A stretch of 64,000 bases of DNA from Hericium rajendrae (Eukaryota > Basidiomycota > Agaricomycetes > Russulales > Hericiaceae), in NCBI GenBank assembly GCA_033439255.1, contig CM065891.1, positions 1,674,001 to 1,738,000 on the forward strand. Reading direction: 5' to 3'. This document shows positions 9,107 through 51,548 of the stretch, piece after piece; the first letter of the stretch is position 1, and each line of letters starts with the position of its first letter. Both the position numbers and the translations under genes were made by a program. The notes beneath the pieces were generated by a model. It searched no databases and was not told the origin of the DNA. It was given only the letters and a program-made list of their open reading frames with translations.

Positions 9107-9801
9107 TCAGGCTACGCAGGGCGGAGGCCATGGGACGCGGTCGTTTGACTTGATTTCAACTTCCGGCGCCATTCTCGGATCGGTGCGCATGACGTTGTAC
9201 ATATCTTCGTCGCTGAACAAGGCACACGTCTCTACTATCTGAAGAGAGAGGCAACAAATGGGAATAGGTTGGGATCTAGGTAGGGAAAAGCATACCTTAA
9301 ACGATTGTACATCCGTCCCATTATCATTGCCGAAGGATCGGAACTCGCACCCGACAAAGACACTAACAGACACGGTCAATATGGATCAGAATTTCGAGAC
9401 ATCTCATACACAACATACTTAATCGAAGTGAGATAAGTTATGTTCCAATTGTTCACCAGGTCCAAAGCTAGCAAAGCGTGTTTAGACAGGACAGGAGTCG
9501 AGGCCTCGACCCATCTATGGAACTGGTCGTCGATGAGGTGACCCCTTGTGTCCCGATCTATACCCGCGCGGAGTTCGACAACTTCTCGGCATTCGCCTTT
9601 GTGAGCACTCCACCCTGCTCTTTGGCACTCTTTGGAGCAGTACTCGCGATATCTGCAGAATGAGTTGGCGTGGTGGGAAAATCTAAAAAAGAAGAGACAA
9701 GAGGCTTACCTGCATCTGCGGCAACGAAAAGAAGGGTTTGGGGCACTGCAGTTTGCACAAGGAAATCCTCGCGGCACACCGTGCTTGTACTGGGCGGCCA
9801 T
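9107..9801 (-). CDS. MYND-type zinc finger protein (array gene A2), C-terminally truncated
   Basis: Four exons (9801-9710, 9652-9419, 9362-9296, 9238-9107) give 174 aa. The MYND finger is complete: CANC, CRRC, YCSKEC, HKGEC. The helical domain has LLALDLVNNW, and exon phases equal those of A1. The last exon ends about 50 residues earlier than in A1. Just beyond the stop the homologous tail continues in another frame (TWQTSL, DAGDVDF), so a one-base frame change explains the short end. Since one-base changes are frequent in this sequence, the truncation may be an artefact. The function is unknown beyond zinc-dependent protein binding. Confidence 0.6.
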
Positions 9802-10161
9802 GATGATGATGATGTCTGGAGGAATGGGGAGATAGAAAAGACGGACGGGAAGTGCTGCTACTTATATGAAAGCGAGAACATCTCGTTTGGGATAAATGCG
9901 CGACGTGTGATCGACCATCGTCTCCAGATACGCTCTGTAATTGGCAGTAGCAGCACCTTTTTGGGTCGGCCGTCGTTTTATGGGTTAGCGCCAGCCAATG
10001 AACGTCATCCTCGTTATTGTGCGCTATCAGGCGGGACCTTTCCAAGTGTGCGATAACTCACGAAGAAATATTACAACCGTCGACGCTTATAATGACACCG
10101 CCTGGCCGCGGTCTGACTTCATGCAAAGGTATATTCGAGCGATAGGAACATTAATTGAGTC
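9802..10161 (-). promoter_or_regulatory. promoter region of MYND gene A2
   Basis: It has an ATG-triplet run at the start codon, a TATAAG box near 9861-9866 on the minus strand and an ATTGGC motif about 150 nt further upstream. The layout is the same as upstream of A1 and the two segments align over about 200 nt. Confidence 0.5.
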
Positions 10162-29967: not shown

Positions 29968-31133
29968 CTACTGTTTCAGCTTTTCAACGAGCTGGGGTAC
30001 CACCTCGAACAAGTCTGCTACAAGCCCAACGTCCGCAACCTGGAATATCGGTGCATCCGGGTCCTGGGCGCACATGGGTCAGAATAACACCAAAGCAACA
30101 CCAGCAAGCATGCACACCTTGTTGATCGCGACGATCATCTTCGAGTCCTTCATCCCGGCCAAGTGTTGAATCGCGCCGAGATGCCGAGCGCCATGTACAG
30201 CTCCGGCGCGACGATCTTGCCCGTCTGGCCGACCTGCAGCGAGTTGTCCGCGTACCCCGCGTCGACCGCGGCGCGCGACGCGCCGACGGCCGCACCGAGG
30301 ACGTCCGCAAGCGGGTCGAGCGTCACCTTGAACGTTTCCGCGTTCTTGAGCGCGCGTCCGCCGGACACGACGCGCTTCGCGACGCCGAGCTCGGGGCGGT
30401 CTGACTGCGTCAGCTCCGTCTTGACGTGCTGCGTCGGCGAGTCCGTGACCTCGACGGCCTCGAGAACGGTCACCTCGGGCGCAGCGCTGCTGTCCTCGAC
30501 TGCGGGTGCGAAGGCGGTGGAGCGCACGGTGAAGAGCTTGACGGGGACGGAGCCGGGCGCGCGGACGGTGGCGATGGCGTTGCCGGCATAGATGGGGCGC
30601 GTGAAGGTGGTGCTGCCGGATGCCGCATCGTGTGTGAGGCCAGTGATATCGGAGATGGCAGGGACGTCGAGCTTGGCGGCGACGCGCGGGAGGAGGGCTT
30701 TGGCGGCGGAGGAGTGGGAGGAGACGACGTGCGTATAGGGCGTGCCGGTGCCGAGGAGCTTTTCAAGGAGCGGCGAGACGATTTCGGGGACGGGGGAGGC
30801 ATATTGGGGTGATGAAGAGTGGATAATGGATTTCAGGCCTTTGAGTCTGCGGGTGATAGCGGGATGGTCGCGGTCAGCAGGCTGTCAATGCTCAGGACGT
30901 GGAACAGACTTCTTCGCCTTTTCCAAGACACCTGGGGTCTGGTCAGCACCTCCAATGACGATGCCAGTCACGTCGCCGCCCAGTTCTTCAGCTGCGGTCA
31001 ACGCAGACAGCGAGCCAGACTCGATGGAGCCATTGCGGTGCTCGATGAGCACAAGTGCGTGTGGAGATGTCGCGGTTGCGTATGTGCGCAGGAATGCCCG
31101 ACGAGCGAGTGAAATCGACTGGGCGCGCAACAT
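29968..31133 (-). CDS. ETFA: Electron transfer flavoprotein alpha subunit, mitochondrial
   Basis: The start at 31133 gives a mitochondrial presequence ([21 protein letters not shown]). The N-terminal domain follows ([24 protein letters not shown]), then the C-terminal FAD-binding domain: [40 protein letters not shown] and [16 protein letters not shown]-alpha/beta accepts electrons from acyl-CoA and other dehydrogenases in the matrix and passes them to ETF-ubiquinone oxidoreductase. There are two introns. The conserved GISGAIQH requires one more G/C at 30176-30177, again a homopolymer. It is transcribed divergently from PEX5 with 268 bp between starts. Confidence 0.9.
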
Positions 31134-31401: not shown

Positions 31402-33858
31402 ATGTCTCTTCAAGGTCTCATGTCAGGCGCGGACTGCGCTGTCGCTGCCAACCCCTTATCTCAGGTGCTCAAGCATGCAGATACGGACCGCAGCGTCCAA
31501 CAGGTGTGTGGTGTACGGAATTTAATTCATTCTACATTCCATTAAACATGTGAACTACAGGATAGGATGGCAGGGCCTTCGTCTTCAAGGGTATGCCTTA
31601 ATTCTGCTGAGCCAAATCGGTTGGTGGTTGTCTGATGTCCCATCTCCAGCTGCGCCATCTCCCGAGCTCTAATATCCCGACGCCGGCAGAGCAAGATCTC
31701 GTTATGGCTCGTCAGTTCTTTGAAGGAAACACTCAGGGTCCAGCTGCACCCCCATCTATGTCAATGGTACACCAGGTTTCTCGTTTTGACATAAACCGAT
31801 CAATGTCTCCCATGACACAGCCAGGCGCTAGTCTGAATGATGCGTGGAAGGAAATGCAACAGAACAATCTCTTCCAAGGTGTTCCTGGAAACTCCTCGCA
31901 GCTTGCTGCATGGGCAGGCGAGTTTCAACCTACACAGCTTCTAGGTCCTAGGTTGGTGGAGACGCAGGCCAACGGATCACGGTCCTCCCTCGTCGGGCCC
32001 TCCTTCCGGAGCGCGTACGGTATGCCACCGCAGTATTCTGCGGGGATGCCTTGTATGTCCACGTCATATCCTCCACGTCTCTGTCTCATGTGTCACAGAT
32101 CGTCAAGACCCCTACATGTCCGGGCTGACTGACAGCTTTGCTAACGCTAATCTCTCGGATAAGGGCAAGGGCAAGATGAGAGACTCTGACCTTGAGGCTG
32201 CATTTGCTCAGTTCGACAGTGTCAGCTCTGCTCGAATCCAACAAGATCCTGTCCAACAGGAAGACCATGAATCTGACCAGACGAGAGATGCACTGAATAA
32301 GGACGAATCCGTCAAAGATTCGTTCCTCGATCCGAATACGTCTTTTAAGGAGTAAGTGCTCAGTTTTCGAATCTACATATCGGTCATCTCATGCGTTGTT
32401 CTCTGCTCGTTCTAGAATATGGGATCAAATGCGCAACTCCGACCTACCGCCGGACGACTCGGACATGGCCAAGTGGGAGGCCGAGTTCAACCAGCTGATG
32501 TCCGGAAAACGCGCCGACGGGGAAGTTGACTACGACTACGGCAGCGGTCTGCAGTCGGCCTGGGAAAACGGGTTTGGTGACCTGGGCGACAGCACGGGGC
32601 CGGAGAGCCTGAAATTCGACCATGAGGGCATACCGATTCTGGAGCCATATACTTTTGGTACGCGACCTGTCTACCGCCCTTGCTAGATTGTCTCACGCGC
32701 TCCGTTTTAGAACAAAACAACAGGCACCTCGATCCGTCTGCATCTACGCAGTCGCCGCTCGCGGACGCGAAGGCGCTGCTTGCTCAGAACGGCTCGCTCT
32801 CGGAAGCCGCCTTACTCCTGGAGGCTGCAATTCAGAAGGGTGATCTCGGCGAAGGCGGCTACGAGGCGTGGATTCTCCTCGGCGAAACTAGAAACATGGA
32901 CGAGCGCGAGGAGCTCGGTATGAAGGCACTGACCGAGGGTGTCAGACTGGCCGAAGCAGCCGGCAATCCAGGACCTGGCATGGTGGTACGTCGTGTCCCA
33001 TCTTTCCTTGAATCTTCGCAGTGCTGAGTCTTCATTCGACGCGAAGTCGCTGGCTATCTCCTACACTAACGAAGCGTTCGACCGTGCTTCGAACACGATG
33101 CTCATGCGCTGGCTGCGCACGCGCTTCCCGAATCGCCCTATCCCGCAAGAGACGCTCGACGCGCTCGGCAAGTCCTCGTGGCATGCGCACGAGCTCGTGA
33201 CCGACGCATTCATCGGCGTCGCGCGCGAGCAGCATGCACAAGGCATCATCGACCCGGATGTGCAGGTCGCGCTCGGCGTGCTGTTCTACACGAACGGGAG
33301 CTACGATCGCGCGAAGGACTGCTTCGAGACCGCGCTGAGTGTCAAGCCGAATGTGAGTGCTGTTTTGTTTTGTGAGGCTCTGTGCAGTGCTGAATCCGGT
33401 TTCGCAGGACTATCTGTTGTGGAACCGGTTGGGCTCCGCGCTATCGAATGGGAACAAGCCTGAGGAATCATTAGGCGCGTACCGCCAGGCGCTCAACCTA
33501 CGACCGACCTATACGCGTGCGATCTACAACGTCGGCGTCGCCTGTGCGTGTGCTCACGTGTGATTCCGCTTCTACGTTTGAGCTAATGCGTAGTTTCAGG
33601 CATGAACATCGGCTCGGACAAGGAGGCCGCGGAGCATTTCCTCAGTGCGCTGGCGCTGCAGGAGTCAACCGGCGGCGAGAAGAGCGAGCAGCTGTGGCTA
33701 ACGCTGCGCCGGGCATTCAACTCCATGGTTGGTCTCATGTGGATCTTTTCTTCGCAGTGTCCTGACCTTGTATTCTACAGGATCGCCGTGATCTGGCCGA
33801 GCTGACGAAGGCGAACCCGCCTCTTGAAGCATTTCGCAAGGAAGGTTTCGAGTTCTGA
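31402..33858 (+). CDS. PEX5: Peroxisomal targeting signal receptor PEX5
   Basis: About nine exons encode the cytosolic receptor that binds C-terminal SKL-type PTS1 signals and docks at the peroxisome. The N terminus MSLQGLMSGADCAVAANPLSQ carries the conserved Cys used for ubiquitin-dependent recycling. WxxxF/Y-type docking motifs are WAGEF, WEAEF and WENGF. The C-terminal half is TPR repeats: EAWILLGETRNMDEREELG, AISYTNEAFDRASN, DVQVALGVLFYTNG, DYLLWNRLGSALSNG, AIYNVGVACMNIGSD, ending in EGFEF. Splicing keeps one open frame with no disagreement. The gene converges with TRM44 copy 1 (137 nt between stops). Its 3' two thirds (from 31982) belong to the 8.7 kb duplicated segment. Confidence 0.92.
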
Positions 33859-33995
33859 GATGCCTCTGGACGTATTATTACCCGTAGACAATGTACATAT
33901 AGACGGACTATCACGATTTAGGTCAGTGGAATTGACCTATATAGGATGCATTGCAACAATACAATGTTACTGTCTATGTATGGATACAGTCGTCG

Positions 33996-35677
33996 TTAGT
34001 GATCGCCAGCCTTCCCTTCCGGCCTCCGCGTTTTGAAGATCCCCCTCCTCCGCACATCGTCCACAATCTCCTCCACATGCCCCTTCGCCTCCTCCCATTC
34101 CTCCCCCTCCACATGCCTCCGCCCGACAATCGCCCAGTTCCGCGTACTCGGGATCCGCAGCGTCTCGCACTCAATCGACCACCCGCACCGCGCGCTGAGT
34201 GCCGCGAGCCAGATGCGGTACATGGAGTATGAGCTCGCGTTGCTCCCGTCCCCGCCGAGGTTGAGCGTGCCCGCGTCGACGGGCGCGCCGGGCGCGTGCC
34301 GTGAGCGTTCGTAGCGCGCGTCGAACACCCATGCGCAACATGGTATGGAGAGGTAGCCCGCTGCGGCGGTGCGCGTTGCGAGCACGGGGACCCAGGGCGT
34401 GAGCTCGTCGGCGTGGTTGCCGATGAGGAACGCGCCGGATGGAAGGTGCAGCGAGTCGGGGGTGGAGGAGGTCGGGTCGAGAGCGGCGACGTGCAGAGCG
34501 GCGCGGGTGGGAGGTGGGTAGTGCGACCAGGACATGCGCGCGCGGAGGTCGAGGCCGTGTCCGGGGTAACCCTCGGAGACGAGTATGTGTGTGAGCAGGC
34601 CGTTGCCGCACCTGTGGGGTTGGGTCAGCGGCGATGCATGCTTTGAGAGCGGACACGTACCCTAGGTCGACGAAGCCTCCGGGCGGCCGGGGCCAGTGCT
34701 TCCACGGTTCTTCAGCGAGCGGCTCATCCGCTGTATCTGGCGCGTCGGACGCGTAGGTATCTTTCCACAACAGCATGAGAAACGTCGCTATCCCAATGTC
34801 CTGCAAAACGTTTGGTGTCAATCGACCTAGTTCAAAACGGACAACTCAGAAGTTGACTTGCTTCAAATACATGCTTCAGAGGATCCGTCACCTCCTGCCA
34901 CTGATCCACGATGTGCTTATGCCGCTCGCGCATCACAAGGTACAGGTCCTGGTATATCTCCCGCGGCACCAGAGTGTCGTGGATGACGCGCTTCTTGTAC
35001 TGCGTCAGCACGCCCCAACCATATCGGTGCAGCGTCTCGAGCAGCGCAAGACATGTGCGGTAGAGGCGCGCGTTCGGGTCGAGCGGCGTGCCGGGGAGGG
35101 GTATGGCCTCGATCTGCAGTGTTGCGGGTGAAGTAGACGCGGGGATGTAGCGGAATGCGAGATGGGTGACGGTCGGGTGGTAATATGGCAGTGAGGCATC
35201 GGTATCGACGATCGGAGTCAGCACGAGGACGGAGGGAGAGGATTGCGGGCCGAGAGAGTCGCTGGATGCGTAGAGCGTGCAGTGTTGCTCGAGGCCGGCG
35301 TCCCGCAGTGGTCGTCGGGGCAGCAGTTTGCGATGGATGTTTCGGATGGGGACAAAGCCATCGAGAGTTGGGATCGAAGAGGGAAATGTGTCGTTGGTGT
35401 CACTCACGACTTCCGAGCGCAGAATCAGAGTCGAATTATACTCTGGATGATGGATCAACTGAGAGACGGCCGTCTCGAACTGGAATGGAGGTCAGAGTGT
35501 GAGGAAACTCTTTCGTGCGCTCGATGGGCTCACCAGATCCGGGGGAAAGTCAGCTGGACAAGATAAAATAGGGATCCATCTGTCAGCGACGTCTGAAGAA
35601 TGACTTGCTGCTTGCAGGGTCACTGTAGAATCTGTACATGGCGTCGGTGAGAACTTGGGTTTGTTTAGATGCGACAT
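33996..35677 (-). CDS. TRM44: tRNA (uracil-2'-O-)-methyltransferase Trm44, copy 1
   Basis: The start at 35677 gives MSHLNKPKFSPTPCTDS. The motif-I/SAM region is FVDLG-CGNGLLTHILVSEGY, with an intron after the first Gly. Upstream are KHVFE / DIGIATFLMLLWKDTY. Downstream are FLIGNHADELTPWVPVLA, SIPCCAWVFDARY and LRIPSTRNWAIVGRR, all diagnostic of the Trm44 family, which methylates U44 of tRNA-Ser in the cytosol. Splicing gives one open frame. A second, nearly identical gene is 8.7 kb away. The two proteins differ mainly outside the motifs, for example GYPGHGL against GYTGRGL. Confidence 0.9.
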
Positions 35678-37353
35678 GGTGTCGGCGGATCTGCGGCCTC
35701 AGATATCAAATGGACTGTCGGTCACGAGAAGAAATGTACTGGTCTCATTCAGCAGTAACCATCGGAACGACGCTCATGGGCTGCATGCAGGAAAAATGCA
35801 TTGATTTGCAGAAAAAATAACAGCGTACTGATTTCAATGTTTGGTCACGTGGTTTCGAGCGCTAAATGAGGTTCGTTGATGGCGCCCGGCGTTGAGTCGG
35901 ATTGACGTTGCAACCTCAGCTTGCAGCAGCCTTTTCATAGCAGCATCATCCAACAGCAACGACCTTCATATTGCATCCAACTAGCAGCGCTGGGAAGTAT
36001 TGTGAAGGTCTCTACTTTTCATTTCGTATCAAACCAGTACGCTCGGAAGATACACTATGTTTTGATGGAGCATCACCAGAATGGTCGTAATAAGTATCGC
36101 TCACCCCAGGATGGTTCAATATCGATAGTTTGTTGTCGTTTCAATGCTGGATCTCCCGACAGCTCTGCATATCTGTGAGTCTCCCGAACGTCGCTGTTTC
36201 AGGGCTTACGCGCAGACAAGTTCCATTGCCCGGATCTCAGATCTGATGGACGACTCACGGCCCTTACCCCTTCGAACACTATCTCTGCGGTGACCTACGC
36301 CGCGCACCTTGTCTCATCATTCGCAGCATGTTTCTCAGATGGCGGCACAGTTCCGTGTTGACTACTGTGGCTACCATGCAGTGCATACTCATAATTCTTG
36401 AGCTGGGCATGTCCCGTGTTGACGTCGGGGCGGTTTCAGATTGCCGCAGATTCCGGTGTCCAGAAATTTGAGTCCATTCAGAAGGTTCCAGGGAGGCCAC
36501 ATCCATGAAAGTCGAGGGAGTTCTATTTGCTATCATTCGAACAATGAAGGAAGGCAATGGTAGGCATATTGTCGGTAACATAGCTCATGGTGCGTTTGAA
36601 GGATGGATTGATATATTTGTTTCAATCATAGGTGCATCATGCCATCAGTTCTTGGCCAGGAAGGCAATGCTCATCTTGTTTCGCAGGGCGTTTCGAAATT
36701 CGCTGTCAGAGGCACCACACACAATTGTGGCAAGAACTTTAGATCTCATGGCTTAACGTCGTACCGAAGGAATATATTACTGACTGGGTGGCTCAAATGC
36801 CTTCCGCTCAATAACAGATCATAAGTGGTACGCTTGTTTTATTCTGCTCAGGATCTGTCCGACTTACTGACGACGACACTGGTTTTGTTTGAAAGGTTTC
36901 ATATGGCGTATGTCTACTTCATCAATCCGAAGTCGAAGTACCTCGCGCTTCTATAATACGTCAAGCAGACATTACCCTAATTCATCTTCTTCGACGCGAT
37001 GCTGATGATAGTAGGAATAGAACAGGTTCCAGGTCCTTCACTGACTATAGGTGCCGTAGCAAGAGTTCCCATGTAACTTATGTCTCTAGTTATGCTTGGG
37101 ACTCGGCGCTCGTGGAGATTAGTGTGCTAACATTGGTCCAAGGCGTTTCCGATTCCTCCATCCCGGTGTATCCAAATTGACTGCTCATCATTGTTCTTGC
37201 TTCAAGGAGAGGTTAGATCTGATAAGGCAGGGTCGCCTGTTACTTTTCTCGTCCAGCTGGGGCTACGTCGTGCCGTCTAGTCTGCCCATATAAGTGTCTT
37301 GGATGTCAACGCTGGTGTATGCCACTACTGTATCTGTCCCCTCATTGGTCAAT
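35678..37353. other. 1.7 kb duplicated DNA without a confident gene
   Basis: It contains several exon-like open frames (VSTFHFVSNQYARKIHYVLM near 36005; MKVEGVLFAIIRTMKEGN at 36505) but no recognisable domain. Copy 2 at 44368-46049 is about 98% alike, and its differences in these frames are mostly amino-acid changing, so protein coding is not supported. A TATAAG at 37289-37294 serves the DUF6534 gene that follows. Confidence 0.4.
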
Positions 37354-39465
37354 ATGTCTTCATCTCAGGAATCCCTACCCTTCCCTCTCGACCGACCTAC
37401 GCCAGTCCCTGACGACCTGTACCGTGAAATCTATGGTACGTATATTATCATTGGCACTTCATGCTATGTTCATGTTACTGATATGTCGATTTATTAGGCG
37501 GGACGACAATATGCTGCATGTTAATGCTTGTCCTCTACGGAGTGTCGGTCTTGCAGGCGAGTAGTCATCCTAAGATGCATGCGCTGCGACGCTGACCCTA
37601 GAGCAAAGACATACCTGTACTACATGGGTTATCCGAATGATCGCCGAGTGCTCAAAATACTGGTAAGTCCCGACAAGCGACGTTGCATGACGCTTAGCTG
37701 AAAACGAAGTCAGGTCGTCTTGCTATTGTTGGTATTGTTGCTAGTATCTCTCTATTCAGCCTGACATGGTGCAAAATAGCTGCATGTCGACGCTGCACAT
37801 AATCTTCCGTACGCAAGCCATCCCGTCTTCAGACCGAGTCCACGATATTGACCGTCCAAACGGATAGTATGTCACACAGTGTATCATTACCATGTGCGTC
37901 CTGCTGCAAGGACTGATCTCGATGAAGATTTCCTCAATATGCTATCGTCTGTCTCCAGATCCTTGCATACCACAATCCTTTATCGTTGCTTGGCGGAGTA
38001 TGGTAGGGATATCTTGTCGCTCTGCCGGAACTGCCGCTGCTGAACATCGATGTTGTTTAGGTCTCTCTATGCAAGTGCCTTCTGTCTTTTCCGTTCTGTA
38101 CGTTACTGAAGTTTTGTTTGTATAGATGGTCACTGGGACTGGGGTGGGTCTAGCATCAGCGAAACTGGTCTTGATCTTGGTCAGTGCTGATATTCATTGG
38201 CAGGTTATTATCTGTTTTCTGGTCCAGCTGTAAGTTTTACCATTCTTCTCGTTCGACGATAAGACTGGCACAGGGTAATTGAACCACGGTCTCCTTCAGG
38301 TTCTACACGCGAATGATCTACCACTGTCAGTGTACCTCGGCCCACAGTACGCCCCATTAATTCTAACACCCAAGCTTAGTGACGAAAGACAAGTGGAGAT
38401 GGCTCCTAACAATCGTCCTCGTAGGCCACGTTTTACACTCTGAGGCCAAATTGATTCATCGCCAACGCAGGCATTGTTGATTTTTATGCAAGTCGGTAAG
38501 AACTCGATCAGAAATGGGCATTATAGTCTAACTTGACATGAGAAATTACACTTACCAGCATTTGGAATCGGTACGGGACTCAACGCCCTCTACGACGTAT
38601 TTCTGCTGACTGAATCATTGCAGTTACGGTCGTTGGAGAGTCAGTATTGAATATTGAACCAGCCTAGTTTTCTGCTGAACAAGATGGCAGATTCCGTGAA
38701 TGGGACATCGCGAAACTTGCCAACATCGCTGTACGATCTCGCCGTTCTTTTACTGACTGCCGAGACTAACGAGTGCCCCAGCTTAACTCGATGGTGCCCA
38801 TGTTTGCAGCGAGGGTCGCATCGGATTCCGTGACTGCACTGTCGCTTTGCGTTCTGTTGCATGGCGCACGACCAAACTTCTTCGGGTGAGTTCCATGACA
38901 GTTCAACCTGATCAAGCACGCGCTGACTCCGGACAGATCAGGAAAACTGGTGCACACCCTGATAATTTACTCTGTTAACAGGTTTCTTCTGACAACGTGC
39001 GTATTTGGATCATGTCTACCGGAAACGGCTCCTGAACTTGACGTCCCAGGGTGATTGTCATTGTTCAAATGATAGCGGTGGGCTTCGTCGTATTGCAAAT
39101 GAATTGTCCTCGCTGAACTTCTCAACGATTAGCTCATATGTTCGCCCGAGAGCGTTTGGGCTATGATCATAGATTTCGTCAGCGTGCATTGTGGAGTCCC
39201 TATCAGTTGGGAAATAGCCAATTGCATGCTCATTTTCTTGCCAGTATATGTCAACAGCTGCTTAGCTACACTGAATTCGCGCCATTACCTGCACAACATC
39301 GACAAGACTGGTACGAAGGGTGCTTCCGGATACTTGGAAAGAGGCCCCAGAAATGAGTTTGAACTGTCTCATAAACGCATTGTGATCGGGGCTAGATCTG
39401 CGGCCAACGTCGACCTGAATGCTCCTAGCATGTCAGATTTGGCGAGGATGGAGGTGGATGGATGA
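37354..39465 (+). CDS. DUF6534-type multi-pass membrane protein A1
   Basis: About a dozen very short exons. Recognisable steps are LPFPLDRPTPVPDDLYREIYG, CCMLMLVLYGVSVLQ, TYLYYMGYPNDRR, CHTVYHYHV, VIICFLVQLFYTRMIYHL, VTKDKWRWLLTIVL, a TVVGE segment, LIIYSVNRFLLTTVIVIVQM and VYVNSCLATLNSRHYLH. This is the seven-helix plan of the large basidiomycete DUF6534 family, function unknown. Intron 2 (37557-37608) is GC-AG. Compared with paralog B the frame closes about a dozen codons early (GGATGA where B reads GGGTCT). The middle exons (about 37790-38130) are hard to join and may be partly decayed. TATAAG lies 65 nt upstream of the ATG. Confidence 0.6.
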
Positions 39466-40627
39466 ATTAAGCTGAAGCATGGTAACAATGCTATGGTATG
39501 AAATCCAGTTTTCAATCAGAATATTGCCGGCTCACGCTGATATCGCGTCTGTTTAGACATCGAGTGTGTGAACTATACATACTCGACACAGTCGCGGGCA
39601 TTCTTCAATTGTTTGCTTCGCTGCCGTCAGGCCATTGCAATGTGACTCCTGATGCTCGCTGAATACACGTCCAGAGTGAGCGACTCCACATAAAGCATGA
39701 GAGGCCTACGACGCGAGATATTTATCTGCTAGGCCGTCATGGCTGAGATAACCGAGCGCTGCATGTCGTCTTCATCACTGACGTTGTTCAAAATACAGGC
39801 CCAGGAATCGCCCTGCGCTGTCTCACAGATGACAGCATAAACACCAAGGTTAACGATACCCCAAAGCAGAGCGAGGGTCGGAGCGAAGTGCGTCAAGACA
39901 GTGGGCCTGCCTGTGGGCATCTGCCAGTAAGAGCTGGCGAAGGAACATGTCAAGCAGCTCGGGTCAGAAATATTATTTGTATGATCTGCGGGCATACTTT
40001 CGATCCTTGCGTTCACGATATAATCAGTGGTACGCTCGTAATTTTCACCTCGCAGACTACCTGCAATTCGTATCCTGTTCTAGACCGAGCCATGGCTATC
40101 GACGAGGGCTTTCCACTGCGACGATGGTGCTCTTTCTCATTTAAAGACCATCATCTTACACGGCAGAGACATGTGGTTTACTGGCGTCAAGTCAAGGTGC
40201 CTGTGCCTCTGCACAAACGCCGAGCAGACATCCCCTGGACTCATCGGCGACGTGACGCTGATGAGAGCGGGTACAGAACGGCTTTCACTTGAAAATATAG
40301 ATCGTATGTCCTTAATCTCTGCTTTGATCTCCGCATCCGTGAAGACTGCGCAAATGTCTGCCAACAACAGGCCGTATACGGAAGATTCAAGCCGTCTCCG
40401 ATGATTAAATCACCTCGGCATCATTCTTCCAGATCATCCAGCGCTTGCAGGAGGATCTTCCAGTGCTTAAAGGGGAGTAATGCAGCAATGCAGATTCTTG
40501 ATGTTGCTGTCACTATTTAATCCTCCCATGGCCCATTGGCGCAACTGAGCGCTGTTCTTCTCATATAAGTACTTGTGATGTCGACCCTGCAGCGCGTTCC
40601 TCAGCACCGTGTCTCCTTATCGTAAAT
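39466..40627. other. 1.16 kb duplicated spacer, nearly identical in both copies
   Basis: A 95-codon minus-strand frame (40016-39729) has one hydrophobic segment (FAPTLALLWGIVNLGVYAVI) and may be an exon of an unidentified membrane protein. Other frames overlap it. Copy 2 (48154-49317) differs at only a handful of bases. The right end holds a TATAAG (about 40564) that here drives the chimeric gene. Confidence 0.45.
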
Positions 40628-42558
40628 ATGTCTTCGCCCCAGAATCCCTCCACTTTCCCTCTCGACAGACCTACACCGTATCCAGTCCTCCTCGTCGGGC
40701 CCTCCTTCCGGAGCGCGTACGGTATGCCGCAGTATTCTGCGGGGATGCCTTGTATGTCCACATCATATCCTTCACGTCTCTGTCTCATGTGTCACAGATC
40801 GTCAAGACCCCTACATGCCCGGGCTGACCGACAGCTTTGCTAACGCTAACCTCTCGGATAAGGGCAAGGGCAAGATGAGAGACTCGGACCTTGAGGCTGC
40901 ATTTGCTCAGTTTGACAGCGTCAGCTCTGCTCGTATCCAACAAGATCCTGTTCAACAGGAAGACCATGAGCCTGACCAGACGAGAGATGCACTGAACCAG
41001 GACGAATCCGTCAAGAATTCGTTCCTCGATTCGAATACGTCTTTCAAGGAGTAAGCGTTCAATTTTCGACTCTACATATCGGTCATCTCATTGCGCTGTT
41101 CTCTGCTCGTTCTAGGATATGGGATCAAATGCGCAACTCCGATCTACCGCCGGACGACTCGGACATGGCCAAGTGGGAGGCCGAGTTCAACCAGCTGATG
41201 TCCGGCAAACGCGCCGACGGGGAAGTTGACTACGACTACGGCAGCGGCCTGCAATCAGCCTGGGAAAACGGGTTTGGTGACCTGGGCGAGAGCACAGGGC
41301 CCGAGAGCCTGAAGTTCGACCACGAGGGCATACCAATTCTGGAGCCGTATACATTTGGTGCGCAACCTGTCTATTGCCTGTGCTAGATTGTCTCATGCGC
41401 CGTTTCAGAACAAAATAACAGGCACCTCGACCCGTCTGCGTCTACGCAGTCGCCGCTCGCGGACGCGAAGGCGCTGCTTGCGCAGAATGGCTCGCTCTCG
41501 GAAGCGGCCTTACTCCTGGAAGCTGCAATCCAGAAAGGTGATCTTGGCGAAGGCGGTTACGAGGCATGGATTCTCCTCGGCGAAACTAGAAACATGGACG
41601 AGCGCGAGGAGCTCGGTATGAAGGCACTGACCGAGGGTGTCAGACTGGCCGAAGCAGCCGGCAATCCAGGACCTGGCATGGTGGTACGTCGTGTCCCATC
41701 TTTCCTTGAATCTTCGCAGTGCTGAGTCTTCATTCGACGCGAAGTCGCTGGCTATCTCCTACACGAACGAAGCGTTCGACCGTGCTTCGAACACGATGCT
41801 CATGCGCTGGCTGCGCACGCGCTTCCCGAATCGCCCCATCCCGCAAGAGACGCTCGACGCACTCGGCAAGTCCTCGTGGCATGCGCACGAGCTCGTGACC
41901 GACGCGTTCATCGGCGTCGCGCGCGAGCAGCATGCGCAAGGCATCATCGACCCGGATGTGCAGGTCGCGCTCGGCGTACTGTTCTACACGAACGGGAACT
42001 ACGACCGCGCGAAGGATTGCTTCGAGACCGCGCTGAGTGTCAAGCCGAACGTGAGTGTCGCTGTTGAATTTGTGAGGCTCTGCGAGGTGCTGAAGCCATT
42101 TCGACAGGATTATCTCTTGTGGAATCGGTTGGGCTCTGCGCTGTCGAATGGGAACAAGCCTGAGGAATCATTAGGCGCGTACCGCCAGGCGCTCAATTTA
42201 CGACCGACCTATACGCGTGCGATCTACAACGTCGGCGTCGCCTGTGCGTGTGCTCATGTGTGCTTGCGCTTCTTCTTTCGAGCTAATGCACAGTTTCAGG
42301 CATGAACATCGGCGCGGACAAGGAGGCCGCGGAGCATTTCCTCAGTGCGCTGGCGCTGCAGGAATCGACCGGCGGCGAGAAGAGCGAGCAGTTGTGGCTG
42401 ACGCTGCGCCGGGCGTTCAACTCCATGGCCGGTCTCATGTGGATATTTTCTTTGCAGTGTCCTGACCTTGTGTTCTACAGGATCGCCGTGATCTGGCCGA
42501 GCTGACGAAGGCGAACCCGCCTCTTGAAGCGTTCCGCAAGGAGGGTTTCGAGTTCTGA
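40628..42558 (+). CDS. Chimeric gene: DUF6534 first exon fused in frame to PEX5 TPR region
   Basis: The first 19 codons (MSSPQNPSTFPLDRPTPYP) and the promoter come from DUF6534 gene B. From codon 20 on the sequence is PEX5 (VLLVGPSFRSAYGMPQYS onward) in the PEX5 frame, with all PEX5 introns retained and one open reading frame to EGFEF. It lacks the PEX5 N terminus with its recycling Cys and the WAGEF motif, but keeps WEAEF, WENGF and the full TPR domain that binds PTS1 peptides. In the TPR region I count about 20 silent against 2 replacement differences from PEX5, so the protein appears constrained. TATAAG sits 65 nt upstream of the ATG. It could be a cytosolic PTS1-binding protein or a modulator of import; the role is unknown. 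Confidence 0.8.
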
Positions 42559-42686
42559 GGCGCCTCTGGACGGTTTGTTACCCATAGACCATGTACATCT
42601 AGACGGAGTACAGTTAGGTCGATCACACGGACCTATGTCAGATGCATTGCAACGATACAGTGTTATATGTATGGATACAAATATTA

Positions 42687-44367
42687 TCAGTGGTCGCCAG
42701 CCTTCCCTTCCGGCCTCCGCGTTTTGAAGATCCCCCTCCTCCGCACATCGTCCACAATCTCCTCCACATGCCCCTTCGCCTCCTCCCACTCCTCCCCCTC
42801 CTTATGCCTCCGCCCGACAATGGCCCAGTTCCGCGTGCTCGGGATCCGCAACGTCTCGCACTCGACCGCCCACCCGCACTGCGCGCTCAGCGCTGCGAGC
42901 CAGATGCGGTACATGGAGTACGAGCTCGCGTTGCTCCCGTCCCCGCCGAGGTTGAGCGTGCCCGCGTCGACGGGCGCACACGGCGCGTGCCGCGCGCGCT
43001 CGTAGCGTGCGTCGAACACCCATGCGCAGCATGGGATTGAGAGGTAGCCCGCCGCGGCGGTGCGTGTTGCGAGCACGGGGACCCAGGGCGTGAGCTCATC
43101 GGCGTGGTTGCCGATGAGGAACGCGCCGGACGGGAGGTGCAGCGAGTCGGCGGTGGAGGAGGTCGGGTCGAGAGCGGCGACGTGCAGGGCGGCGCGGGTG
43201 GGGGGTGGGTAGTGTGACCAGGACATGCGCGCGCGGAGGTCAAGGCCGCGGCCGGTGTAGCCCTCGGAGACGAGGATGTGCGTGAGCAGGCCGTTGCCGC
43301 ATCTGCGAGGTAGGTCAGCGGGGATGCATGCTTTGAGAGGGGGGACGTACCCTAGGTCGACGAAGCCTCCGGGCGGCCGCGGCCAGTGCTTCCATGGTTC
43401 TTCAGTGAATGGCTCATCCGCTCTATCTGGCGCCTCGGACGCGTAGGTATCTTTCCACAACAGCATGAGAAACGTCGCTATCCCAATGTCCTGCAAAACG
43501 TTTGGTGTCAATCGATCTAGTTCAAAACGAACAACTCAGAAGTTGACTTGCTTCAAATACATGCTTCAGAGGATCCGTCACCTCCTGCCACTGATCCACG
43601 ATGTGCTTATGCCGCTCGCGCATCACAAGATACAGGTCCTGGTATATCTCCCGCGGCACGAGAGTGTCGTGAATGACGCGCTTCTTGTACTGCGTCAGCG
43701 CGCCCCAGCCATATCGGTGCAGCGTCTCGAGCAGCGCAAGGCATGTGCGGTAGAGGCGCGCGTTTGGGTCGAGCGGCGTGCCGGGGAGGGGTGTGGCCTC
43801 GATCTGCAATGTTGCGGGTGATGTAGATGCGGGGATGTAGCGGAATGCGAGATGGGTGACGGTCGGGTGGTAATATGGCAGTGGGGTACCGGCATCGACG
43901 ATCGGAGTCAGCACGAGGACGGAGGGAGAGGACTGCGGGTCGAGAGAGTCGCTGGACGCGTGGAGCGTGCAGTGTTGCTCGAGGCCGGCGTCTCGCAGTG
44001 GTCGTCGAGGCAGCAGTTTGCGATGGATGTTTCGGATGGGGACAAAACCATCGAGAGCTGGGATGGAGGAGGGGAATGTGTCGGTGGTATCGCTCACGAC
44101 TTCTGAGCGTAGAATGAGAGTCGAATTGTACTCTGGATGATGGATCAACTGAGAGACGGCCGTCTCGAACTGGAATGGAGGTCAGAGTGTGAGGAAACTC
44201 TCTCATGCGCTCGATGGGCTCACCAGATCCGGGGGAAAGTCAGCTGGACAAGATAAAATAGGAATCCATCTGTCAGCGACGTCTGAAGAATGGCTTGCCG
44301 CTTGCAGGGTCACCGTAGAATCTGTACATGGCGTCGGTGAGAACTTGGGCTTGTTTAGATGCGACAT
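42687..44367 (-). CDS. TRM44: tRNA (uracil-2'-O-)-methyltransferase Trm44, copy 2
   Basis: Same exon structure as copy 1 (start 44367, stop 42687-42689) with all motifs kept: DIGIATFLMLLWKDTY, FVDLG-CGNGLLTHILVSEGY, FLIGNHADELTPWVP, SIPCCAWVFDARY and LRIPSTRNWAIVGRR. Replacement differences cluster in loops (DAPDTADEPLAE to EAPDRADEPFTE; HVEGEE to HKEGEE). The frame is open, so this is likely a second functional methyltransferase. It converges with the chimeric PEX5 gene (128 nt between stops). Confidence 0.88.
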
Positions 44368-46049
44368 GGCGTCGGCGGATCTGCGGCCTCAGATATCAAA
44401 TGGACTCTCGGTCACGAGAAGAAATGTACTGGTCTCATTCAGCAGTAACCATCCGAACGACGCTCATGGGCTGCATGCAGGAAAAATACATTGATTTGCC
44501 GAAAAAATAACAGCGTACTGATTTTAATGCTTGGTCACGTGGTTTCGAGCGCTAAATGAGGTTTGTTGATGGCGCCCGGCGTTGAGTCGGATTGACGTTG
44601 CAACCTCAGCTTGCAGCAGCCTTTCCATAGCAGCTAGCAGCATCATCCAACAGCAACGACCTTCATATTGCATCCAACTAGCAGCGCTGGGAGATATTGT
44701 GAAGGTCTCTACTTTTCATTTCGTATCAAACCAATACGCTCGGAAGATACACTATGTTTTGATGGAGCATCACCAGAATGGTCTTAATAAGTATCGCTCA
44801 TCCCAGGATGGTTCAATATTGATAGTTTGTTGTCGTTTCAATGCTGGATCTCCCGACAGCTCTGCATATTTGTGAGTCTCCGCTGAACGTCGCTGTTTCA
44901 GGGCTTACGCGCAGACAAGTTCCATTGCCCGGATCTCAGATCTGATGGACGACTCACGGCCCTCACCCCTTCGAACACTATCTCTGCGGTGACCTACGCC
45001 GCGCACCTTGTCTCATCATTCGCAGCATGCTTCTCAGATGACGGCACAATTCCATGTTGACTACTGTGGCTACCATGCAGTGCATACTCATAATTCTTGA
45101 GCTGGGCATGTCCCGTGTTGACGTCGGGGCGGTTTCAGATTGCCGCAGATTCCGGTGTCCAGAAATTTGAGTCCATTCAGAAGGTTCCAGGGAGGCCACA
45201 TCCATGAAAGTCGAGGGAGCTCTATTTGCTATCATTCGAACAATGAAGGAAGGCAATGGTAAACATATTGTCGGTAACATAGCTCATGGTGCGTTTGAAG
45301 GATGGATTGATATATTTGTTTCAATCATAGGTGCATCATGCCATCAGTTCTTGGCCAGGAAGGCAATGCTCATCTTGTTTCGCAGGGCGTTTCGAAATTC
45401 GCTGTCAGAGGCATCACACACAATTGTGGCAAGAACTTTAGATCTCATGGCTTAACGTCGTACCGAAGGAATATATTACTGACTGGGTGGCTCAAATGCC
45501 TTCCGCTCAATAACAGATCATAAGTGGTACGCTTGTTTTATTCTGCTCAGGATCTGTCCGACTTACTGACGATGACACTGGTTTTGTTTGAAAGGTTTCA
45601 TATGGCGTATGTCTACTTTATCAATCCGAAGTCGAAGTACCCTGCGCTTCTATAACACGTCAAGCAGGCATTACCGGAATTCATCTTCTGCGACGCGATG
45701 CTGATGATAGTAGGAATAGAACAGGTTCCAGGTCCTTCACTGACTATAGGTGCCGTAGCAACAGTTCCCATGTAACTATGTCTCTAATTATGCTTGGGAC
45801 TCGGCGCTCGTGGAGATTAGTGTGCTAACATTGGTTCAAGGCGTTTCCGATTCCTCCACCCCGGTGTATCCAAATTGACCGCTCATCGTCGTTCTTGCTA
45901 GAAGGAGAGGTTAGACGATAAGGCAGGGTCACCTGTTACTTTTCTCGTCCAGCTGGGGCTACGTCGTGCCGTCTAGTCTGCCCATATAAGTATCTTGGAT
46001 GTCAATGCCGCTGTATGCCACTACTGTATCTGTCCCCTCATTGGTCAAT
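44368..46049. other. 1.7 kb duplicated DNA without a confident gene (copy 2 of 35678-37353)
   Basis: Counterpart of the first-copy spacer with small indels, such as an extra AGCTAGC near 44632. It contains the TATAAG of DUF6534 gene A2 near 45986. No gene is recognised. Confidence 0.4.
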
Positions 46050-48153
46050 ATGTCTTCATCCCAGGAATCCCTACCCTTCCCTCTCGACCGACCTACGCCA
46101 GTTCCTGACGACCTGTACCGCGAAATCTATGGTACGTAAATTATCATTGGCACTTCATGCTATGTTCATGTTACTGATATGTCGATTTATCAGGCGGGAC
46201 GACAACATGCTGCATGTTGATGCTTGTCCTCTACGGAGTGTCGGTCTTGCAGGCGAGTAGTCATGCTAAGATGCATGCGCTGCGACGCTGACCCTAGAGC
46301 AAAGACATACCTGTACTACATGGGTTATCCGAATGATCGCCGAGTACCCAAAATACTGGTAAGTCCTGACAAGCGACTTTGCATGACGCTTAATTGAAAA
46401 TGAAGTCAGGTCATCTTGCTATTGTTGGTATTGTTCTAGTATTTCTGTATCCAACCTGACATGATGCAAAATAGCTGCATGTCGACGCTGCACATAATTT
46501 TCCGTACGCAAGCCGTCCCGTCTTCAGACCGAGTCCACGATATTGACCGTCCAAACGGATAGTATGTCACACAGTGTATCATTACCATGTGCGTCCTGCT
46601 GCAAGGACTGATCTCGATGAAGATTTCCTCAATATGCTATCGTCTGTCTCCAGATCCTTGCATATCACAATCCTTTATCGTTGCTTAGCGGAGTATGGTA
46701 GGGATATCTTGTCGCTCTGCCGGAACTGCCACTGCTGAACATCGATGTTCTTTAGGTCTCTCTATGCAAGTGCCTTCTGTCTCTCCCGTTCTGTGCGTTA
46801 CTGAAGTTTTGTTTGTATAGATGGTCACTGGGACTGGGGTGGGTCTAGCATCAGTGAAACTGGTCTTTGATGTTGGTCAGTGCTGATATTCATTGGCAGG
46901 TTATTATCTGTTTTCTGGTCCAGCTGTAAGTTTTACCATTCTTCTCGTTCGACGATAAGACTGGCACAGGGTAATTGAACCACGATCTCTGTCAGGTTCT
47001 ACACGCGAATGATCTACCACTGTCAGTGTACCTCGGCCCACAGTACGCTCCACTAATTCTAACGCCCGAGCCTAGTGACGAAAAATAAGTGGAGATGGAT
47101 CCTAACAATTGTTCTCGTAGGTCATGTTTTATGCTCTTAGGCCAAATTGATTCATCGACAATGCAGGCGTTATTGATATCTACGCAAGTCGGTAAGAGCC
47201 CGGTCAAAGATGGTGATTATAACTTGACATGAGAAACTACTGCTCCTAAGCATTTGGAATTGGTATGGGACTAATCTTTGTCTACGACACGTTTGCTGAG
47301 TTGATCATTGCAGTCACGGTCGTTGGAGAGTCAGTTCAGCATACACTCGTCTAATTTTCTGCTGAGTCAAGATGGCAGATTCCGTGAATGGGATATCGCG
47401 AAGCTTGCCAACATTGCTGTACGATCACGATAGTATTACGCTGACTGCCGAGACTATCATGTTCCCCAGCTCAACTCGATGGTGCCCATGTTTGCAGCGA
47501 GAGTCGCATCAGATTCCGTGACTGCGCTGTCGCTTTGCGTTCTGTTGCATGGCGCGCGACCAAACGTTTTTGGGTGGGTTCTGTAACAGTTTAACTGATC
47601 AAGCACGCGCTGACTCCAGACAGATCAGGAAAACTAGTGCACATCCTGATAATCTACTCAGTTAACAGGTTTCTTCTGACGACGTGCGTAATTGGATCAT
47701 GTCTACGGGATATCGCTTCTGAGCTTGACGTCTCAGGGTGATCGTCATTGTTCAAATGATAGCGGTGGGCTTCATCGCATTGCAAATGAAAGTGCCCTCG
47801 CTGAACTTCTCGACGATTAGCTCATATGTTCGCCCGATAGCGTTTGGGCTATGATCATAGATTTTGTCAGCGTACATTGTTGAGTCCCTATCAGTTGGTA
47901 AATAGCCCATTGCATGCTCATTTTCTTGCCAGTATATGTCAACAGCTGCTTAGCAACACTGAATTCGCGCCATTATCTGCACAACCTCGACAAGACTGAT
48001 ACGAAGGGTGCTTCCGGATACCTGGAAAGAGGCCCCAGAAATGAGTTTGAAATGTCTCATAAACGCATTGTGATCGGGGCTAGATCTGCGGCCAACGTCG
48101 ACCTGAATGCTCCTAGCATGTCAGATTTGGCGAGGATGGAGGTTGATGGATGA
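46050..48153 (+). CDS. DUF6534-type multi-pass membrane protein A2
   Basis: Counterpart of A1: LPFPLDRPTPVPDDLYREIYG, LVLYGVSVLQ, TYLYYMGYPNDRR and VYVNSCLATLNSRHYLHN, with the same GC-AG second intron (46253-46304) and the same early stop. Its first half is about 98% like A1. The stretch around 47080-47370 is only about 80-85% alike and changes several residues (ALLIFMQVG to ALLISTQVG), so either A1 or A2 was altered there. Function unknown; a membrane protein. Confidence 0.55.
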
Positions 48154-49317
48154 ATTAAGCTGAAGCATGGTAACAATGCTATGGTATGAAATCCAGTTTT
48201 CTATCAGAATATTGCCGGCTCACGCTGATATCGCGTCTGTTTAGACATCGAGTGTGTGAACTATACATACTCGACACAGTCGCGGGCATGCTTCAATTGT
48301 TTGCTTCGCTGCCGTCAGGCCATTGCAATGTGACTCCTGATGCTCGCTAAATACACGTCCAGAGTGAGCGACTCCACATAAAGCATGAGAGGCCTACGAC
48401 GCGAGATATTTATCTGCTAGGCCGTCATGGCTGAGATAACCGAGCGCTGCATGTCGTCTTCATCACTGACGTTGTTCAAAATACAGGCCCAGGAATCGCC
48501 CTGCGCTGTCTCACAGATGACAGCATAAACACCAAGGTTAACGATACCCCAAAGCAGAGCGAGGGTCGGAGCGAAGTGCGTCAAGACAGTGGGCCTGCCT
48601 GTGGGCATCTGCCAGTAAGAGCTGGCGAAGGAACATGTCAAGCAGCTCGGGTCAGAAATATTATTTGTATGATCTGCGGGCATACTTTCGATCCTTGCGT
48701 TCACGATATAATCAGTGGTACGCTCGTAATTTTCACCTCGCAGACTACCTGCAATTCGTATCCTGTTCTAGACCGAGCCATGGCTATCGACGAGGGCTTT
48801 CCACTGCGACGATGGTGCTCTTTCTCATTTAAAGACCATCATCTTACACGGCAGAGACATGTGGTTTACTGGCGTCAAGTCAAGGTGCCTGTGCCTCTGC
48901 ACAAACGCCGAGCAGACATCCCCTGGACTCATCGGCGACGTGACGCTGATGAGAGCGGGTACAGAACGGCTTTCACTTGAAAATATAGGCATCGTATGTC
49001 CTTAATCTCTGCTTTGATCTCCGCATCCGTGAAGACTGCGCAAATGTCTGCCAACAACAGGCCGTATACGGAAGATTCAAGCCGTCTCCGATGATTAAAT
49101 CACCTCGGCATCATTCTTCCAGATCATCCAGCGCTTGCAGGAGGATCTTCCAGTGCTTAAAGGGGAGTAATGCAGCAATGCAGATTCTTGATGTTGCTGT
49201 CACTATTTAATCCTCCCATGGCCCATTGGCGCAACTGAGCGCTGTTCTTCTCATATAAGTACTTGTGATGTCGACCCTGCAGCGCGTTCCTCAGCACCGT
49301 GTCTCCTTATCGTAAAT
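48154..49317. other. 1.16 kb duplicated spacer, copy 2
   Basis: Essentially identical to 39466-40627; I see two or three differences, one a 2-nt insertion near 48989. Its right end is the natural promoter of DUF6534 gene B (TATAAG near 49254). Confidence 0.45.
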
Positions 49318-51548
49318 ATGTCTTCGCCCCAGAATCCCTCCACTTTCCCTCTCGACAGACCTACACCGTATCCAGATATCATTTTCCGCGAAATTTTCGG
49401 TGCGTTTGTTATCACGGAGATTCGACGGCATACTTATGCCAGTGATATATTGATGATTAGGCGGTTCATTAATATGCTGTATGCTTATGCTGGTCCTCTA
49501 CGGACTGTCGATCTTGCAGGCAAGTGGGCCGCCCTCGACGCGTGCGCCATGAAGCTGATCCCGTAATCAAGACCTACCTGTACTACATGAATTACCCAAA
49601 TGATCGGCGGCTGATGAGGATACTGGTGAGTCCCGTCTGGCATTTTGTACAATCTCTGCTTAGTGACTATTTCAGGTCGCCCTACTATTGTTTGTACCTC
49701 TGCTGGCGGCTTTTTGGCGACACACTGATTGGCTTTCGGCACAGCTGCATGTCAACGCTGCATGCAGTCTTCTGTATGCACCCTCTTCCGCTTCAAGCAG
49801 CGTTGTTATTGACCGTCTGCATGGACAGTGTGTCACACAGTGTATTACTACCATGTGCGTCTTGTCGCACATATGGATCTTGGCGGAGTTTGCCTCATTA
49901 TGTCTTCACCTGCCCTCAGGTCCTTGGTTATCACGATCCTTTGTTGTTGATCGGTGGAGTATGGTATGTATACATTGCTGTCCCGCCCTATTACCAGTCG
50001 CTGAACAACTCTCGCCTTACCTAGGTCGCTTTTTGTACGTGACCTTGTCGACCCCATTCTTCAAGTTGACGAACTTATTGCTTGCGAAGATGACGACTGC
50101 GACAGGGGTGGGCGTAGCGTTAATGAAATCAGTTTAAATTATTACTGACGTTCAACAATGGCAGGTCGCTGTTTGTTTCATAGTCCAGCTGTAAGCATCG
50201 CCGTTTCCTTCGTCCTTCAAGCTTCAGTACCGAACTTACATGGCAACTGAATCCCGATATTCTACGGGTTCTACACGCGGATGATTTATCATTGTCAGTG
50301 CACCTTGCTTTCCAGATGCTCTTGTACTGATGCTCAAGCACAGTGACGAATCACAAGCGGCGGTGGTTCTTAACGATCGTTTTGGTATGTCGCATTCAAC
50401 GCGCTGAAGTCAAGCTAAATTCTTGGTGATACAGGTGCTGCTCATTCTAATGCAAGTTGGTAAGAGCATGATCATCGACGATAAGTATAATCTGACATCA
50501 GACTGCCGACTTTAGGTTTCGGAATATGTATGTGACCAAATTGCTCCGTCGACAACACTTTCGCTAAGTTGATCGTTCCAGTCACGGTCGTTGGAGAGTC
50601 AGTCTTTAATCTGTTGACTCCACCCGATTCCCGCTTAGTACAAGTGGCAGATTCCAGGAATGGGATATCGTGAAAGTTTCCAATATTGCCGTAGGATATA
50701 TCTTGCTATGAGCCTTCTTCCAACTGAACCTAACCCATCTACTAGCTCACGTCGATGGTGCCAATGCTTTCTGCGCGGGTCGCGTCAGACTCCGTGACTG
50801 CACTGTCGCTTTGCATACTTTTGCGTGGCGCGCGACCGGACTCGGGGTCCTTTGGGTAGGTTCTACAAAAGTATTTACCTGATCCCTCGTGCCCTCTGAC
50901 CACTTCTGACAGATCAGGGAGACTGATCCACACCTTGATTATATACGCCGTCAACAGGTTTCTCCTAACAACGTGCGTATTTTGCATTGCGCCCACGTGA
51001 TATCATTTCTGAGCTTCACATCGCAGGGTGATTGTCATTGTTCAAGTGGCAGCGGTACGCTTCCTATAAGTTCAGACGAGGTTCGCGATGCTGATGGATT
51101 TCGCAACTAGCTCATTTCTTCGCCCAAAAGCATTTGGGCTATGATCATTGACTTCGTTAGCGTCCATCGTTGAGTCCCTATAAACCAGTGATATGTTTGT
51201 TTACTCACTACCCTGCCAGTCTACGTCAACAGCTGCTTGGCAACGCTGAATTCGCGCAACCACCTGCGCAACCTCAGCAAAAGCAGTACGAAGGGCATCT
51301 CCGAATTCCTGGACACGAGCCCCGGAATTCGCTTCGAAGTCCCCCATACTAGCACCATGGGACGGGCGACGTCTGCGTTGAACATCGATCTGAATGCTTC
51401 GAGTATATCAGATTCGGTGGGGATTGAAGTGGACGGGTCTATCAAGTTGAAACCTGGTCACAATGACGTGGTACGGACCCCATTTCTCTATCAGAATATT
51501 CCCGGCTCAAGTTGACGTGTCGTGTCTGTTCAGACTTCGAATGTGTGA
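49318..51548 (+). CDS. DUF6534-type multi-pass membrane protein B
   Basis: The start at 49318 (MSSPQNPSTFPLDRPTPYPD) continues through IIFREIFG, CCMLMLVLYGLSILQ, TYLYYMNYPNDRRLMRIL, VALLLF, MSTLHAVF-LCHTVYYYHV, CFIVQLFYTRMIYHC, VTNHKRRWFLTIVL, TVVGEF, LIIYAVNRFLLTT and VYVNSCLATLNSRNHLRN. A final small exon gives the end NDVTSNV (intron 51471-51533). This is the full-length member from which the A genes' C terminus can be judged. Intron 2 (49520-49571) starts with a classic GCAAGT donor. It supplied the promoter and first exon of the chimeric PEX5 gene. The family is basidiomycete-specific and of unknown function. Confidence 0.65.

Follow-up and report, generated by a model that had tools for sequence, protein, structure and literature searches.

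A predicted in-frame fusion of a DUF6534 gene start to PEX5 at the seam of a head-to-tail repeat in Hericium rajendrae

Tandem duplication is a described route to genes of mixed parentage: in Drosophila yakuba it produces chimeric structures and shuffles regulatory elements, and new expression is known to arise from chimeric genes formed in this way (PMC5460883). For PEX5, the receptor for type 1 peroxisomal targeting signals (PTS1), mono-ubiquitination at Cys11 is described as mandatory for extraction (PMC10959387). Here, we describe a stretch of 64,000 nucleotides from the basidiomycete Hericium rajendrae (contig CM065891.1 of assembly GCA_033439255.1, positions 1,674,001 to 1,738,000; ‘the window’, whose own numbering is used throughout), in which the promoter and start of a membrane-protein gene, DUF6534-2, are joined to the tetratricopeptide-repeat (TPR) encoding part of PEX5 at the seam of a head-to-tail repeat. 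A preliminary description of this locus took it to be a new chimeric gene; the DNA does encode an in-frame fusion of DUF6534 exon 1 to PEX5, but the status of an established gene is not borne out.

The seam and its reading frame

Reading the fusion from its 5′ end, we see that positions 40628–40685 match 49318–49375 at 58 of 58 bases, after which the sequence becomes that of PEX5 exon 3; upstream of the start codon the identity continues unbroken, taking in the whole of 40301–40685 as compared with 48991–49375. The TATA-bearing promoter proposed for the fusion is present, its TATAA motif lying within sequence identical to that of DUF6534-2, and the letters at the seam likewise agree with the proposal that 19 DUF6534 codons (plus one base) stand in the PEX5 frame. 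The further statement that a ‘first exon’ had been fused holds for the in-frame DUF6534 start but not for the exon as a whole: exon 1 of DUF6534-2 (49318–49399) is 82 nucleotides in length, of which the fusion takes 58, the join falling inside an exon on both parental sides.

On the PEX5 side of the seam, a CCC run of the full copy is reduced to CC. Joined without this change, the two parents would have been out of frame; it is the loss of that one base that brings the fusion into frame. Random exon–exon joins are in frame in one case out of three, and this site was chosen because of its in-frame reading.

The seam lies within a direct repeat of ∼8.7 kb, the two units of which (A and B) align with 94.8% identity over 8,670 columns. 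Of the 451 substitutions, 330 are transitions and 121 transversions, and the 22 gaps include an end effect at 31985 that arises from the ends chosen; as the units are compared with each other, the differences are unpolarised. Similarity of this extent, 8.7 kb at 94.8%, rules out chance as the source of the repeat. Each unit carries the back part of PEX5, a minus-strand methyltransferase gene that we take to be TRM44, a first DUF6534 gene (DUF6534-1) and, from DUF6534-2, the promoter with the opening 58 nucleotides. Within this head-to-tail arrangement the seam joins two genes, both of which are retained as parents: the 5′ part of a complete PEX5 lies upstream of unit A, whilst DUF6534-2, as judged from an incomplete model spliced by eye, continues 3′ of unit B, with residues 152–240 of that model matching Pfam DUF6534 (PF20152; E 4e-15). 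A match of the same model to PF03339 (E 0.049) fell below the cut-off and was disregarded.

Divergence between the units and the origin of the repeat

The 451 substitutions are spread unevenly. Segmentation, in which the first and second codon positions were excluded for PEX5 and TRM44 but kept for DUF6534-1, returns four blocks: 31985–34744 with 13.5% divergence (175/1,293), 34747–38352 with 3.8% (116/3,064), 38353–39364 with 12.1% (121/1,001) and, on the side of the seam, 39365–40684 with 0.3% (4/1,320). This last block contains a tract, ending at the seam, that has no substitution at all relative to unit B; it measures 1,023 bases, whereas 2,000 shuffles gave no substitution-free run longer than 253, and by our own arithmetic the absence of substitutions from 1,023 bases limits divergence there to at most ∼0.3% (95%). 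Because the adjoining bases are substitution-free in this way, we take the seam itself to be young, recently homogenised or artificial; and, whether haplotypes or gene conversion lie behind it, we judge that until very recently the fusion and DUF6534-2 had identical promoters and starts. A second stretch free of substitutions, 32869–33066 (198 bases), sits inside the diverged PEX5 block and spans the whole of a 61-base intron (32986–33046; 0/61 differ); it may be a short tract of conversion or recombination.

In the part of PEX5 shared by the two units (493 codons), there are 61 synonymous and 8 replacement differences (8/493 residues; synonymous divergence, dS, 0.206; replacement divergence, dN, 0.0071; omega 0.034), with omega at 0.049 before the TPR part and 0.017 within it. 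Were all 69 differences neutral, simulation (2,000 runs) gives a mean of 46.6 residue changes and a minimum of 33, with 14.6% of runs free of stop codons; 35 neutral changes placed on one copy give a mean of 23.9 and a minimum of 15, and none of 2,000 simulations with either 30 or 35 such changes returned 8 or fewer. A copy B that has long been a dead pseudogene is thereby ruled out. If the fusion copy had taken up 10 neutral changes, the probability of 8 or fewer residue changes is 0.858; a young seam fits because up to ∼10 neutral changes agree with the 8 residue differences found. From these counts, both copies of PEX5 diverged for the most part whilst under coding constraint, and the fusion could have been neutral at most briefly and lately. 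Such counts by themselves would suit a young fusion as well as a selected one.

Low omega is not, however, a property of PEX5 alone. The TRM44 copies, both of 502 residues, differ at 23 of them (dS 0.188, omega 0.115), and the DUF6534-1 copies, both of 330 residues, show a dS of 0.170 and an omega of 0.11; since these two genes are equally unrelaxed, we do not regard a low omega as demonstrating selection on the fusion. Three genes made redundant together, none of which is relaxed, resemble alleles or orthologues and usually not old duplicates. The three intact gene pairs, at omega 0.03–0.12, would fit divergence between alleles, although old constrained paralogues could look alike. Because PEX5, TRM44 and DUF6534-1 are all without relaxed selection, as alleles would be, we favour—with a probability of roughly 0.65—an origin in which a single locus is present head to tail as two haplotype copies that have diverged, whether by recent duplication or by an assembly join, and we divide this figure about evenly between the two. 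Recombining haplotypes would also give the four-block pattern described above, and the GC donor of the last intron of the fusion (see below) is a further point in favour of this origin. Allelic divergence this large is rare but known, two crossed parents of Schizophyllum commune being 14% apart on average (PMC4209137).

In the first of these variants, breakage followed by end joining would have linked DUF6534-2 exon 1 to PEX5 exon 3 and so created a recent tandem duplication on one haplotype, ordinary recombination then exchanging most of the left unit for a diverged allele; the fusion would be a young and near-neutral by-product. We hold this tentatively. The one-base overlap at the seam is of a kind that end joining can leave, and the near-identity of the seam-side block, with its switch to diverged sequence at about 39,365, is consistent with such a history; it does, however, call for high polymorphism in the species and for one or more additional recombination events.

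In the second variant, no firmer than the first, the assembler would have linked contigs from the two haplotypes of a dikaryon without leaving a gap, and the chromosome as assembled would not exist. The allele-like divergence of PEX5, TRM44 and DUF6534-1 is in line with this, as is the position of the unit ends in a tract identical between units; false chimeric gains through the joining of haplotypes have also been described (PMC9516828). Saying this, one shared base could hardly mislead an assembler, and there is no N at the seam or elsewhere in the 64-kb window, an assembly gap at the join being the usual, if not the sole, form of false heterotype duplication. Should the repeat be a haplotype join, it would carry a warning of its own: two adjacent alleles can yield a chimera that is in frame, free of stop codons and low in omega.

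Other points weigh against a haplotype origin in either variant. The intergenic region 35678–37347 is only 3.0% diverged (50/1,667), below the synonymous sites, which is predicted neither by simple alleles nor by simple duplicates without exchange; gene conversion between old tandem copies would produce the same block pattern; and indels spare the coding sequence (1 in 1,480 PEX5 columns, of 3 nucleotides; 0 in 1,509 TRM44 columns; 21 in 5,681 other columns, one being the end effect), which fits long coding constraint whichever of the two origins applies. The competing account is that of an old duplication (dS ∼0.2), in which the fusion, driven by the DUF6534-2 promoter, was kept as an N-terminally truncated second PTS1 receptor, the intergenic DNA and the promoter having been homogenised by gene conversion between the units. 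We consider it unlikely, yet the 8 residue changes do contrast with neutral means of 46.6 (69 changes) and 23.9 (35 on one copy), the sole gap in the shared coding alignment is of 3 nucleotides, and the frame is set by the one missing base at the seam. Set against these, the part of PEX5 that precedes the TPR is constrained (omega 0.049) as it would be in a full receptor, and the unrelaxed state of TRM44 and DUF6534-1 would need three redundant genes all to have remained under selection.

The predicted fusion protein and its last intron

Given a real seam, transcription from the DUF6534-2 promoter would yield an mRNA in which 19 DUF6534 codons are followed by PEX5 from exon 3 onwards. The encoded protein does not carry the DUF6534 domain itself (PF20152). 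Cys12 of the full copy is absent, the first cysteine of the fusion coming not before residue 390, and two WxxxF/Y motifs (146, 175) are present in place of the three of full-length PEX5 (132, 283, 312); the preliminary description was correct on both of these points, having proposed a product without the N-terminal recycling cysteine and with fewer docking motifs.

Residues 221–492 of the fusion match the solved PTS1 receptor 2j9q_A (E 1.4e-54, the best match) and residues 76–509 match 9fh0_G (E 2.3e-53), which we take to be yeast Pex5; a PEX5-related solved chain, 4eqf_A, matches at E 1.9e-42. The asparagines of TNE, LLWN and MNIG/INLG, together with the arginine and asparagine of R..YN, align with the PTS1 receptor chains, and are presumably residues of the pocket that contact PTS1. 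The C-terminal 74 residues extend the correspondence, with residues 1–70 of this query matching 529–609 of the 612 residues of 9fh0_G (E 2.1e-4).

Provided that the seam is real, the fusion would not be mono-ubiquitinable at an N-terminal cysteine for recycling. From the match of TPR and pocket, the need for Cys11 in PEX5 and for the N-terminal cysteine in yeast Pex9, and the behaviour of plant PEX5C (see below), we infer that it probably binds PTS1 cargo via its TPR and docks via its two WxxxF motifs, but recycles poorly; competition with full-length PEX5 would be the likely effect if it is expressed, and at best a weak one. That Pex9 needs its cysteine in order to function (PMC7642143) also counts against an old duplicate retained as a receptor. 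The stronger proposition, of a natural second PTS1 receptor that lacks the recycling cysteine, is under the promoter of a membrane protein and has been held by long purifying selection, seems to us improbable; were it true, part of peroxisomal import in this fungus would run through, or be restrained by, a receptor with non-standard recycling. A fusion both expressed and selected would offer a natural test of whether a PTS1 receptor can do without export that depends on a cysteine, and would show cleanly, in a fungus, how partial tandem duplication gives rise to a gene.

The downstream PEX5 exons were all described as open; they are, but joining the last of them needs a weak GC donor. Six of the seven introns of the fusion keep GT-AG, the last beginning with GC where the full copy has GT; this donor agrees with CAG/GTAAGT at 4/9 positions, as against 5/9 for the full copy, and one GT donor of the fusion also reaches only 4/9. 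GT-AG makes up 98.7% of fungal splice-site pairs (PMC7072748). GC-AG splicing is plausible here because the DUF6534-1 and DUF6534-2 models contain GC donors of better context (7/9, 8/9), a point in favour of the old duplication, whilst the 4/9 match of the GC donor in question is a point against it. Both DUF6534 models place a GC-AG intron at the same position, with the donor CAG/GCRAGT (37557, 46253, 49520), and that of DUF6534-1 has a second, TAT/GCAAGT (38071, 46766).

Retention of the intron would give another protein of 513 residues, the last 25 of which are foreign, and use of either of two nearby GT donors one of 492 or 499 residues; each of these three computed alternatives replaces or removes the last 25 residues, so that the region C-terminal to the last TPR is kept if the donor ATG/GCCGGT is used and lost in the other three outcomes. 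With a donor this weak, part of the fusion transcript would be expected to lack the proper C-terminus. The last PEX5 intron (33728–33780, 42428–42480; 53 nucleotides) has no in-frame stop in either copy, and its retention leaves the length of the protein unchanged (650 or 513 residues) with an altered C-terminus. The three differences between the last exons all fall at third positions and are synonymous (3/3), which suggests in-frame translation of this exon at least up to recent times, and which an old, retained duplicate would also explain. Overall, the claim of an established gene is weakened by the substitution-free kilobase at the seam, the low omega of the neighbouring genes, the weak GC donor and a possible join of haplotypes.

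The features described are collected in Table 1. Amongst the neighbouring genes, the TRM44 copy of unit B has two open frames that match Pfam AdoMet_MTase (PF07757). The regions upstream of DUF6534-1 (36780–37040) and DUF6534-2 (40030–40290) are alike by eye; these two genes seem to be an older tandem pair. Elsewhere in the window there is a second direct repeat (6952–7158 / 9800–10006; 207 bases, 86% identical, spacing 2,848), and a minus-strand open frame upstream of PEX5 (30150–30884) has electron transfer flavoprotein alpha domains.

Table 1. Positions of the features within the window (aa, amino acids; nt, nucleotides)
Feature	Position	Strand	Size, structure or basis
DUF6534-2 exon 1 start in fusion	40628..40685	+	58 nt = 19 codons + one base
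Seam	40685..40686		one base (G) common to both parents, then PEX5 exon 3
Fusion promoter region	40301..40627	+	identical to DUF6534-2 promoter; TATAA at 40564
Chimeric reading frame	40628..42558	+	8 exons; 513 aa with GC-AG splicing of the last intron
Last intron of fusion	42428..42480	+	donor ATG/GCCGGT, as against ATG/GTTGGT at 33728
Substitution-free tract relative to unit B	39662..40684		1,023 aligned bases, one 2-base gap at 40301, ends at seam
Repeat unit A	31983..40685		∼8.70 kb; direct repeats (spacing 8687–8700), alignment, seam letters; PEX5 from inside exon 3 on, TRM44, DUF6534-1, promoter and start of DUF6534-2
Repeat unit B	40686..49375		∼8.69 kb; direct repeats, alignment, seam letters
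Full-length PEX5, unit A copy	31402..33858	+	10 exons, 650 aa, 9 GT-AG introns; splice model, TPR matches
TRM44-like methyltransferase, unit A	33996..35677	−	4 exons, 502 aa
TRM44-like methyltransferase, unit B	42687..44367	−	4 exons, 502 aa, intact
DUF6534-1, unit A	37354..39465	+	21 exons in model, 330 aa
DUF6534-1, unit B	46050..48153	+	21 exons in model, 330 aa, intact
DUF6534-2, parent of fused 5′ end	49318..51500 (end approximate)	+	incomplete model, spliced by eye

Comparison with known systems

In kind—a chimera by partial tandem duplication, and a second PEX5-type protein—the fusion belongs with what is already known; of its DUF6534/PEX5 build we know of no other chimera. A search made mostly without subscription papers found no paper naming both DUF6534 and PEX5, and none that combines PEX5 with ‘chimeric gene’ and ‘tandem duplication’; relatives of one TPR exon (102 amino acids), sought in viral contigs, amounted to 7 pattern matches, of which 0 were confirmed.

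False heterotype duplications, as set out in PMC9516828, likewise show allele-like adjacent copies, a boundary in identical sequence and a chimeric join; they usually have a gap, or a gap in depth, at the join, whereas here there is no N. With the chimeras of Drosophila yakuba our locus shares the attachment of one gene's promoter and 5′ end to the 3′ part of another, and differs in its parents, in being fungal and in being, as a gene, a prediction from the sequence.

Closer to PEX5 itself, Pex9 of Saccharomyces cerevisiae is also a second PTS1-type TPR receptor derived from PEX5, but it both keeps and needs the N-terminal cysteine (PMC7642143) that the fusion is without. Ustilago maydis, too, has two Pex5 proteins in one fungus that differ in their N-terminal domains, Pex5a and Pex5b; these are described as characterised paralogues of different cargo specificity (PMC9133605), whereas here we have a truncated fusion that differs from its parent at 8/493 residues. 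Vertebrate PEX5R (TRIP8b) is, like the fusion, a TPR protein derived from PEX5, although an older paralogue, for which the regulation of HCN channels is given as the only known function (PMC8172628). Finally, plant PEX5C, an N-terminally truncated PEX5, still contacts PEX14 and the import machinery in vitro (PMC4732227); PEX5C is a laboratory construct, whereas the fusion described here is a reading frame predicted in an assembled genome.
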